Below, in pieces: positions 18,966-37,859 of a stretch of 64,000 nucleotides of DNA (positions within the stretch are counted from its first letter, which is position 1; every line of letters begins with the position of its first letter). The stretch covers positions 1 to 64,000 of the forward strand of contig CANPXL010000013.1 of assembly GCA_947586055.1 (NCBI GenBank), written 5' to 3'. Under the pieces are notes generated by a model. That model did no database searches. It saw nothing but the letters and a program-made list of their open reading frames with translations, and was not told where the DNA came from. This stretch comes from an uncultured Acetatifactor sp. Lineage in GTDB: Bacteria > Bacillota > Clostridia > Lachnospirales > Lachnospiraceae. The translations under genes were made by a program, and so were the position numbers.

Positions 18966-19000
18966 ACCGTCCTTTTTTATTTTGATTTTTTGGGGTGACA

Positions 19001-19048
19001 GTTTGGCCCGCGCCATTCGCAAAGCCGCGCTGACGCGCGATCCGTCCC
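19001..19048. repeat. End fragment of the dispersed palindromic element
   Basis: About 45 bases match one end of the repeats at 35295 and 37571 (shared core GCCCGCGCCATTCGC then AAAGCCGCGCTGACGCGC), then similarity stops. The fragment lies between the phosphatase stop and the kinase start. Confidence 0.7.
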
Positions 19049-35243: not shown

Positions 35244-35294
35244 GTAAAAGATTCTGTCCGCTACCCAAACAGGTACCCATTACTCAAACAGGCA

Positions 35295-35453
35295 AACAGT
35301 TCAGGCCGCGCCATTCGCAAAGCCGCGCAGGCGCGCTCTTCTGCGCTGCGCGCCTGCCTTTGCTCATGAAATGGTGCTCCCTCGACAGCCATACACAGCG
35401 AAAAATTCGTGCAAGCACGATTTTCCGCTGTATCGGCTGCCGGCTGAACTGTT
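35295..35453 (+). repeat. Palindromic dispersed element, copy 1 (MITE-like)
   Basis: A 159-bp element ending in AACAGTTCAG and its perfect complement CTGAACTGTT. It contains a GC-rich hairpin (GCAGGCGCGC pairing with GCGCGCCTGC), a linker TTTGCTCATGAAATGG and a long hairpin (AGCCATACACAGCG...GCACGATTTTCCGC). It has no gene. Its right end covers the stop codon of recX. The inverted copy is at 37571-37730. Confidence 0.85.
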
Positions 35454-36060
35454 ACTCAAACAGCGCTTTTCTCACGGCTTCTCCCGCAAACCCTCTGCGC
35501 ATCAGAAAGGCTCCCTGACGCCGGATCTCCTTTTCATCCGCGGTTTCCGGATCAAAGCCGCGCTTTTCCAGCAGCTTCCGGATCATGGCCTGCTCGTCCT
35601 GCCTTCCTCCCTGCGCTTCCCATTCCTGCCACGCTTTCTTCGCGGTTTCCGGATCAATTCCCCTGGCCGCCAGATCCTGTTCGATCCTTCGGCGGCTCCG
35701 GCTGTTTTCATGTCCGGTGATATAGGCTGTGGCGTATCGCAGATCGTCGGTATAGTGAAAACTCTCCACATAAGCCAGGGCGTCCGCGATGATCTCTTCC
35801 GGATACCCGCCGTCGCGCAGCTTGTCGTGAAGCTGCCTTACCGTGTACTCGCGCCCCTTCAGCAGATTCATGGCCCGCAGTCTGGCACGTCTGGGCAGGA
35901 TCTGCTTCACGATGGTTTCATAATCCTGCGGCGCAAGTTCCTCTCCCTCCGCGACGTGAAAAGAACGCAGTTCGCCTTTGTACAATACAAAGGCGAACTG
36001 CTCTTCAAGATATACCCGGCTGCGGGATTTTGTCAGTTCTTCTATCCGTGTCACTTTCAT
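35452..36060 (-). CDS. recX: RecX regulatory protein
   Basis: A 202-residue modulator of RecA filaments. It has the RecX three-helix repeats: RARLRAMNLLKGREYTVRQL, DDLRYATAYITGH, RRRIEQDLAARGID and the final RRGFAGEAVRKAL. It follows recA in the same direction with a 126-base gap that includes a CTGCGGG/CCCGCAG hairpin at 36158-36175. The stop codon lies inside the end of the palindromic element. Confidence 0.9.
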   Translation of the reverse strand: MKVTRIEELTKSRSRVYLEEQFAFVLYKGELRSFHVAEGEELAPQDYETIVKQILPRRARLRAMNLLKGREYTVRQLHDKLRDGGYPEEIIADALAYVESFHYTDDLRYATAYITGHENSRSRRRIEQDLAARGIDPETAKKAWQEWEAQGGRQDEQAMIRKLLEKRGFDPETADEKEIRRQGAFLMRRGFAGEAVRKALFE

Positions 36061-36186
36061 TCTCGTCTCAGCTTCCGCGGACGTCCTTCCAACGCCCTGT
36101 TTCCGTATTATTTCCGCATTACTTATTATTTCCCATTTTTCCCCGGGATGCCCCTTTCTGCGGGCGTCCCCGCAGGCTGCGCCGTC

Positions 36187-37224
36187 TTACGCCTGCGTCT
36201 TCTCGCCGTCCGGCTTCTCCTGCTCCTTTTTGTCAAAACCGTAATGCGCCCGGACCTTCGCCGCAATCTCGTCACACACCTGAGGATTGTCCTTCAGATA
36301 CTGCTTTGCATTCTCACGTCCCTGGCCGATCTTGTTTCCCTCGTAGGCATACCACGCCCCCGACTTCACCACAATGTCAAGATCCGCAGCCAGATCCAGG
36401 ATATCCCCGACCATGGAAATGCCCTCTCCGAACATGATATCAAATTCCGCTTCCTTAAAAGGCGGCGCAACCTTGTTCTTCACCACCTTGACCCGGGTCC
36501 GGTTGCCGATAACCTCGCCGCCCTGCTTCAGGGATTCGATCCGGCGCACATCCATACGCACGGAAGCATAAAATTTCAGGGCCCGGCCGCCCGTGGTCGT
36601 CTCGGGATTTCCGAACATGACGCCGATCTTTTCCCGGAGCTGATTGATAAAGACCACCGTACAGTTGGATTTGCTGATGATGGCGGTCAGTTTTCTCAGT
36701 GCCTGGGACATCAGGCGCGCCTGCAGACCCACATGGCTGTCGCCCATATCGCCGTCGATCTCCGCCTTGGGGACCAGAGCCGCCACAGAGTCCACCACAA
36801 CAATGTCAATGGCGCCGGACCGCACCATGGTCTCCGCGATCTCCATGGCCTGCTCGCCGTTGTCGGGCTGGGAAATATACAGGTTATCGATATCCACGCC
36901 GATATTCTTCGCATAGACAGGGTCAAGCGCATGCTCTGCGTCAATGAACCCCGCGATACCGCCCCTCTTCTGCACTTCCGCAATCATGTGAAGGGTGACG
37001 GTAGTCTTGCCGCTGGACTCCGGGCCGTAGATCTCCACGATCCGCCCTTTGGGAATCCCGCCCAGTCCCAGCGCAATGTCAAGACTCAGGGAACCGGTGG
37101 GAATCGTTTCCACATTCATCTGCGCGGTGGGATCGCCCAGCTTCATGATGGCCCCCCTGCCGTACTGTTTTTCAATCTGGCTGATGGCCGCGTCCAATGC
37201 TTTCAGCTTTTCTTCTCTTTCCAT
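36187..37224 (-). CDS. recA: Recombinase RecA
   Basis: A 345-residue recombinase with Walker [10 protein letters not shown], Walker [11 protein letters not shown], the L1/L2 loops ([28 protein letters not shown]) and an acidic/KKEQEK tail. AAAGGAG precedes the ATG. It is SOS-controlled through two LexA-type boxes in its promoter and leader. Confidence 0.98.
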
Positions 37225-37246
37225 TCCAAACTCTCCTTTTCCAAGA

Positions 37247-37258
37247 GAACAAATGTTT
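37247..37258. promoter_or_regulatory. LexA (SOS) box 2 of recA
   Basis: GAACAAATGTTT fits the Gram-positive LexA core GAAC-N4-GTTY. It lies between the promoter and the ribosome-binding site. Confidence 0.75.
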
Positions 37259-37274
37259 GCATTCCGTTTATCAC

Positions 37275-37303
37275 AGAATAAAACATCTGTTCGGTTTTGT
37301 CAA
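37275..37303 (-). promoter_or_regulatory. Promoter of recA
   Basis: TTGACA (37298-37303), 17 bases, TATTCT (37275-37280) on the minus strand, with LexA box 1 inside the spacer. Confidence 0.85.
37281..37292. promoter_or_regulatory. LexA (SOS) box 1 of recA
   Basis: On the minus strand GAACAGATGTTT (GAAC-N4-GTTT), filling the promoter spacer so that LexA would block polymerase directly. Confidence 0.85.
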
Positions 37304-37570
37304 CATTTTTTTGCTGTTGCTTTCGATTTCCTCTGCAGCTACCGAAACATAATCTTACTATAGTCCGTTTTATGTACCATAAACTTCCCTCAAAGGCGTC
37401 TCACCTCCCCGTTTTCAAAATTTTCTCTGAAACCTGTGGCGAAACTGCCGGAAGAAAAAGACATTCTCCCCGAATCGGAAGAATCATGATTACGAATGAC
37501 AGATAAATGACAGATATCAGATAAAAACAGTTTATCACAGAATTGCCGGACAGGCAACAAAAACATACAG
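37304..37570. other. Non-coding stretch upstream of recA
   Basis: No gene seen. It is AT-richer than its surroundings. GATAAATGACAGATATCAGATAA near 37501-37523 contains short repeats. The minus-strand open frame across this region (37401-37835) translates the palindromic element and is not a credible gene. Confidence 0.5.
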
Positions 37571-37730
37571 CCAGTTCAGCCGGCAGCCGTATTCGGCGGA
37601 AAATTGTGCTCGCACAAATTTTACGCTGGATACGGCTGTCGAGAGAGCGCCATTTCATGAGCAAAGACAGGCGCGCCAGCGCCGGACAGCGCGTCAGCGC
37701 GGCTTTGCGAATGGCGCGGGCTGAACCGTT
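37571..37730 (-). repeat. Palindromic dispersed element, copy 2 (MITE-like)
   Basis: Reverse-oriented partner of 35295-35453. Read on the minus strand it starts AACGGTTCAGCCCGCGCC and ends GGCTGCCGGCTGAACTGG. It shares the linker TTTGCTCATGAAATGG and both hairpins. In the long hairpin TTTGTGC/GCACAA replaces TTCGTGC/GCACGA of copy 1, a paired change that keeps the stem. Confidence 0.85.
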
Positions 37731-37859
37731 ACACTCCTTAAACCTGCAGTTCTGCCGCTCCCGCCGCTCACGGCGTCCGCCCCGGCCAAAATGCCCGCAG
37801 CGGCCTCTGCGTCCCCGTCTGCGACAATTCGACAATTCAATTCATATCATACACGCTTC

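Follow-up and report, generated by a model that had tools for sequence, protein, structure and literature searches.

Two copies of a palindromic element, one in each orientation, bracket recX-recA in the stretch of DNA analysed here (64,000 nucleotides of an uncultured Acetatifactor sp. genome, hereafter the window). What brought them there, and what keeps their hairpins paired? The initial annotation read the copies as a non-autonomous mobile element or a structured RNA and suggested that they might flip the genes between them. We find that the element is a MITE of the ordinary kind with an unusual interior, which covaries like an RNA, does not favour G.U pairs and is shared with a catalogued RNA family.

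Results

The element pair in the window

The two copies lie where the annotation had placed them, and their complete ends extend to the limits given in Table 1. They are 87% identical, in opposite orientation and 2.1 kb apart, and the inverted arms between them (86, 54 and 18 nt) are 86–100% complementary. Both carry the terminal repeats, the linker TTTGCTCATGAAATGG, which is exact in each (35359–35374 in copy 1, 37650–37665 in copy 2), and the paired change noted earlier in the hairpin, TTCGTGC/GCACGA in copy 1 against TTTGTGC/GCACAA in copy 2. By itself the linker is weak evidence, since among 100 shuffled versions of the window 18 contain two or more hits with up to three mismatches. As described, copy 1 covers the end of recX: the stop codon TAA (TTA at 35452–35454) falls within its terminal GTTAC. 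Copy 2 is not in the set of copies with a target duplication.

In the consensus fold, the long stem of the P2 domain is interrupted by a conserved TC/TC internal loop that bears two small hairpins, and the P3 domain is a hairpin whose sequence varies while its pairing is conserved. A fragment reported near 19001 proved to be a truncated 5′ half, with the 22-base 5′ pattern at 18999–19020 (two mismatches). Allowing up to three mismatches, this pattern occurs 61 times in the window's own genome and its reversed control not once, so the fragment stands above chance. Within the recX coding sequence, the arms of a further inverted repeat match perfectly over 16 bp around a 3-base loop (window 35967–36001).

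Table 1 Features of the window, with coordinates in window positions
Feature	Position	Strand	Details	Evidence
Truncated 5′ half of element	18999..19046	+		pattern and family matches
Left 8-bp target-site duplication TCAAACAG, copy 1	35284..35291	.	8/8 identical; left boundary one base off	
Copy 1, mobile element	35293..35455	+	full length; ends ..AACAGTTCAG / CTGAACTGTTAC; left end with one extra base	
P2 domain, copy 1	35308..35377	+	contains the linker	consensus fold
P3 domain, copy 1	35382..35443	+	long hairpin, tip GTGCAAGCAC	consensus fold, covariation
recX	35452..36060	-		ORF; RecX domains
Right 8-bp target-site duplication TCAAACAG, copy 1	35456..35463	.	within recX reading frame	
recA	36187..37224	-	between copies 1 and 2	ORF and domain search
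Copy 2, mobile element	37568..37732	-	intact end GTAACGGTTCAG at 37721-37732; other end decayed	

A dispersed family with target-site duplications

BLAST against the own genome (2.8 Mb, 57 contigs) revealed a dispersed, multicopy family with 73 matches, 40 of them at least 118 bases long; six of the shorter ones are the long hairpin hitting itself on the opposite strand. BLAST found the element in 16 of 61 genomes and a covariance model, given 78 of at least 113 genome loci as search input, matched 92 of 138 genomes of the genus, the own genome being counted in both. Among the matches listed, the 22-base pattern also occurs in Eisenbergiella, Catenibacillus scindens and uncultured Lachnospiraceae records, and a search of viral contigs gave one chance-like match. 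We analysed a first set of 77 distinct copies and a second set comprising the best 76 or the best 80 of 121 model matches, depending on the analysis. The copies are mostly intergenic, with none of 77 in the first set and one of 76 in the second inside a predicted gene.

The element measures 163 bp and has 12-bp inverted ends, GTAACAGTTCAG / CTGAACTGTTAC. Across the 77 copies, identity between the flanks adjoining GTAAC...GTTAC peaks at 8 bp, and at least 7 of these 8 flanking bases are identical in 24 copies, against a mean of 1.1 and a maximum of 5 in shuffles. The own genome alone contributes 9 such copies out of 32. In the second set, drawn from named genomes, 24 of 80 copies have such flanks, 13 of them perfect. 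Target-site duplications of 8 bp thus accompany about a third of the copies, and a clear duplication is absent from roughly two thirds. Some copies, including ones in Eisenbergiella-titled records, have the alternative ends GTTACAGTTCACTC around the same core; duplications were seen in 2 of the 14 copies classed with these ends. The family accordingly has the hallmarks of a MITE: terminal inverted repeats, duplications of a fixed 8-bp length, and many dispersed copies without a transposase.

Several side observations concern the surroundings and variants of the element. Where a gene points toward its 3′ end, the stop codon often lies 7 nt or less from that end (12 of 21, and 11 of 23 in the second set), which is rarer for genes pointing toward its 5′ end (4 of 41 and 4 of 26). 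Tandem arrays of the 5′ domain alone occur in two genomes, the own genome G000 (C37:18270-18650, C17:15438-15675, C9:61178-61494 and C24:9063-9219; L002, L003, L020 and L064) and G029 (L086 and L033); each array has its own linker and, in the cases read, lies upstream of one full copy. Such single-module arrays beside a full copy are reminiscent of BOX. In a minimal 38-bp version (G000 C2:137298-137335, L324), a remnant of only 14 bp separates the two terminal repeats, and L334 (G006 C1:1268880-1268966) lacks P2 but retains its terminal stem and long P3 hairpin.

IS66-family transposons with similar ends

Ends that begin with GTAA are typical of IS66-type elements, and the window element combines GTAA ends with 8-bp duplications. 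An excerpt of PMC3281130 lists Paracoccus IS66 members with duplications of this length. Within the genus, the single-contig genome G006 (L105 and L127) holds IS66-family transposons of 1817 bp with ends GTAACTATTCAG and duplications ATTTTTAT and AAAAAAAC, and G017 (L103) holds one of 2202 bp with ends GTTACAGTTCAG / GTTACTGTTCAG and duplication CCGATTTT. These ends are one or two bases off those of the element, and the duplications are again of 8 bp. The transposase of the 1817-bp transposon is IS66 by NCBIfam, over the cut-off; that of the 2202-bp transposon falls below it (166 against 180 bits) and passes Pfam PF03050. A further IS66 locus, L114, has ends GTTACTTTTCAT, and most of the remaining loci yielded no readable pair of ends flanked by a duplication. 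Insertion sequences of this family with a single large transposase, labelled ISBst12-like, resemble the element in their GTWAC..TTCAG ends and 8-bp duplications; they differ from it in that the element has no transposase gene, and the folded core was matched in none of 18 IS66 transposon loci at E 1.

Candidate autonomous partners with similar ends thus occur in the same genus, but none was found in the own genome, a draft estimated as 97% complete, where a domain search returned no IS66 transposase. Among the exact ends listed for this genome, the only facing pairs 0.8–6 kb apart involve ends of complete copies, and 13 unexplained ends, each read for about 200 bases, led to no autonomous partner. 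Of the 138 genomes of the genus, 31 have IS66 domains, and of the 31 genomes listed with at least 10 model matches, 5 do; the latter share is no higher than the former, so the abundance of the element has no association with IS66. Related short elements in G006 do have a candidate partner in the same genome. Five were read there, with ends exactly those of the resident transposon, and three of them match the model of the window family (E 2.4e-8, 3.8e-5 and 2.6e-4), while by eye none of the five has a target duplication. Since three of five short elements have the core and none of the 18 transposon loci does, the core travels with IS66-like ends and yet is unlike a transposon remnant.

A REP/RAYT-like identity was rejected, as 8-bp duplications do not fit it and Y1 (PF01797) matches in the own genome amount to two pieces. 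They lie near a contig start (G000 C55:267-607; L092 and L093) and form an interrupted IS200/IS605-like Y1 transposase, one piece of which contains a stop.

Relationship to Clostridiales-1 RNA

At Rfam gathering scores no family matched in the window, and Clostridiales-1 RNA (RF01699) was absent from 20 diverse loci. A permissive scan aligned both window copies, on the minus strand of the element, with the whole RF01699 model (1–166 of 166) at 37.3 and 32.5 bits, below the gathering cut-off of 48. Other copies scored 29.9 to 44 bits, all under the gathering score (the best, 44.0 bits, at L032); of 9 loci given in one scan, 5 matched and 4 did not, and of 12 in another, 11 matched and 1 did not. 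Conversely, a model built from the family only, R1, finds 11 of 30 RF01699 loci at their place (E 2e-8 to 0.04); a twelfth match lies elsewhere. Judged by a fold that spans the whole model, the core of the element is homologous to Clostridiales-1. The two have in common a GTGCTTGCAC-type tip, an ATGAGNA..NCGAAT core, several copies per genome and no preference for G.U; the window element differs in scoring below the gathering threshold and in lacking the third domain, GGATTGCGGGAG....

RF01699 itself, which scores above its cut-off in 92 genomes of the order out of 392, frequently in as many as the seven candidates scored, bears repeats at its borders. A right end could be recognised at 13 of the 30 loci, with a boundary picked after viewing the flanks; of these, 8 have perfect 7-bp and 2 perfect 8-bp repeats; shuffled flanks give 0.15 perfect 7-bp repeats, at most 2. 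The end types are different, GTAAC with 8-bp duplications in the window element and GATGCC..CATC with 7- or 8-bp repeats in 10 of the 13 RF01699 loci. At these 13 loci (among L366–L386) the end lies about 30 nt past the Rfam model, mostly as ..CAACATC, and the model may be short there. Clostridiales-1 was described by Weinberg 2010 (PMC2864571), and an excerpt of that paper gives it no mobile role. An open-licence literature search returned no work that deals with IS66 MITEs in Lachnospiraceae or treats Clostridiales-1 as a transposon.

Covariation and the nature of the folded molecule

Nine helices with 50 pairs make up the consensus fold. The paired changes first noticed between the two window copies extend to many copies and lie far above chance: 33 of the 50 pairs have changes on both sides, and the covariation score of 0.281 compares with 0.109 for shuffles and no more than 0.068 for slid partners. 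The unpaired parts, namely the TC/TC internal loop, ATGAG and a GCTTGC-type tip (read on the minus strand), are nearly invariant. We rejected a small minus-strand gene (GAGGGAG, 9 nt, ATGAGCAAA), as a stop interrupts it in 61 of 144 copies and the reading frame up to the end of the element differs between copies (85, 32 and 27); the ATGAGCAAA of this would-be start signal is present in 141 of 149 distinct copies.

These paired changes could have arisen by mutation only, with template switching copying one hairpin arm onto the other and no selection on structure, an account that we regard as possible though not probable. Template switching is said to maintain hairpins in an excerpt of PMC8794818, and between nearest neighbours in our family double changes that keep the pair outnumber single ones by 116 to 42 (120 to 43 in another count). 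RNase P of the same genus, however, also has more kept doubles than singles (141 to 75), so that this excess alone is weak evidence. Template switching should tend to pair or invert the TC/TC loop and the tips, yet these are nearly invariant, and the core remains recognisable behind different ends, which also speaks against this account.

The other candidate is a functional structured RNA that is spread by transposition, with selection acting on RNA from one strand of active copies. Strong covariation, conserved unpaired positions and matches that span a whole Rfam sRNA model in a single orientation would all suit it, as would the orientation bias of codirectional copies in the first set (32 to 16), but this bias was not reproduced in the second (23 to 20). 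The composition of the stems also argues against it. G.U cells stand to A.C cells as 125 to 90 in the element and 116 to 120 in the second set, against 334 to 6 in RNase P (29 of 30 loci kept), our sole RNA control. As shares of all pairs, G.U and A.C make up 3.3% and 2.3% in the element, 3.1% and 3.2% in the second set, and 11.9% and 0.2% in RNase P. Without the columns in which G.U is commonest, the respective values are 1.5% and 2.4%, 1.5% and 3.2%, and 2.9% and 0.2%; like for like, the gap in G.U is only twofold (1.5% against 2.9%), and A.C gives the clearer contrast (2.4–3.2% against 0.2%). Single changes that keep a standard pair, via G.U, stand to those that break it as 42 to 129 in the element and 55 to 152 in the second set, against 75 to 16 in RNase P, in a comparison of nearest neighbours at equal divergence (0.11) to which free decay after insertion would add A.C and broken pairs whatever the molecule.

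RF01699 shows the same trait (30 members, 24 pairs), with G.U at 1.0% and A.C at 0.6% (7 to 4) and 165 two-sided against 7 one-sided changes. A.C on one strand is G.U on the other, so neither strand of the element looks RNA-like. A measure based on each molecule's own folding was set aside, as it gave RNase P 12.3% G.U but its reverse complement 9.5%, and a comparison of hairpin tips singled out no strand. We infer that the pairing pattern favours DNA over RNA, without amounting to proof. Selection on an RNA would be expected to favour G.U; neither strand of the element shows such a preference, a pattern that fits with DNA being constrained or corrected. Of the selection on structure proposed by the annotation, the paired changes thus stand, whereas the G.U preference seen in RNase P of the same genus is missing, and we consider a functional RNA unlikely.

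recA loci of relatives

We compared 30 recA loci, some of them truncated at contig ends. Full copies occur only in that of the window; the other 29 hold at most a single weak match of 86 bp, which is in L155 at a greater distance from recA. The nearest relative, G035, has the recX-recA segment and both flanks collinear with the window without either copy, the break points being not base-exact. The suggested flipping of recX-recA is unsupported, because the genes are collinear with this relative. Two inverted copies 2.1 kb apart are the arrangement that an invertible switch would need, but with that collinearity and with copies 87% identical, recombination between them is very improbable as an explanation of the pair. 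That the copies are chance palindromes or leftovers of a decayed insertion sequence is scarcely credible: some are indeed truncated or decayed, but their ends number 61 against none in the control, they have target duplications, and the core is missing from all 18 IS66 loci.

Discussion

The proposal of a non-autonomous mobile element has held up, given the many copies, the 8-bp duplications, the empty recA loci in relatives and the transposons with similar ends. The pair around recX-recA probably represents two insertions of a 163-bp MITE that uses an IS66 transposase in trans, with a fold kept as DNA and a core found behind different kinds of end. In such a mechanism, an IS66-family transposase would move the element in trans. 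The fold would be kept at the DNA level, either by template-switch repair of palindromes or by recognition of a DNA hairpin or cruciform; recognition is pointed to by the near-invariance of the unpaired TC/TC loop, ATGAG and the GCTTGC-type tip. Different kinds of transposon end would have come to carry a single folded core.

The pneumococcal BOX and RUP repeats, as described in excerpts of PMC3049150 and PMC10969869, are likewise small, dispersed and folded; the window element, likened to them by description and not by sequence, differs in its IS66-like ends with 8-bp duplications. In an excerpt of PMC11109978, mobile or repeat candidates of the MRSC-65-2 type are similarly drawn as RNA, present in dozens of copies and possibly DNA-acting, with a different motif (conserved UYCCGG).

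More tentatively, Clostridiales-1 as a whole may be a folded DNA module that sits on unrelated ends (GTAAC with 8 bp, GATGCC with 7 bp) and is kept because its hairpin DNA, with a fixed mismatched internal loop, is recognised in transposition or replication. For RF01699, the partner to be expected would be an autonomous transposon with ends like GATGYYRGGGTCAAAAGG. If this is true, genomes of one gut bacterial order would share a mobility enhancer that is independent of any one transposase. Covariation is a main criterion for accepting candidate RNAs, and here a strongly covarying family, homologous to an Rfam sRNA, bears transposon scars and does not prefer G.U. Should further controls bear out the contrast, comparing G.U with A.C cells might help to tell folded mobile DNA apart from RNA among catalogued motifs, and this abundant family of Lachnospiraceae would be useful for studying how one fold joins different transposon ends.
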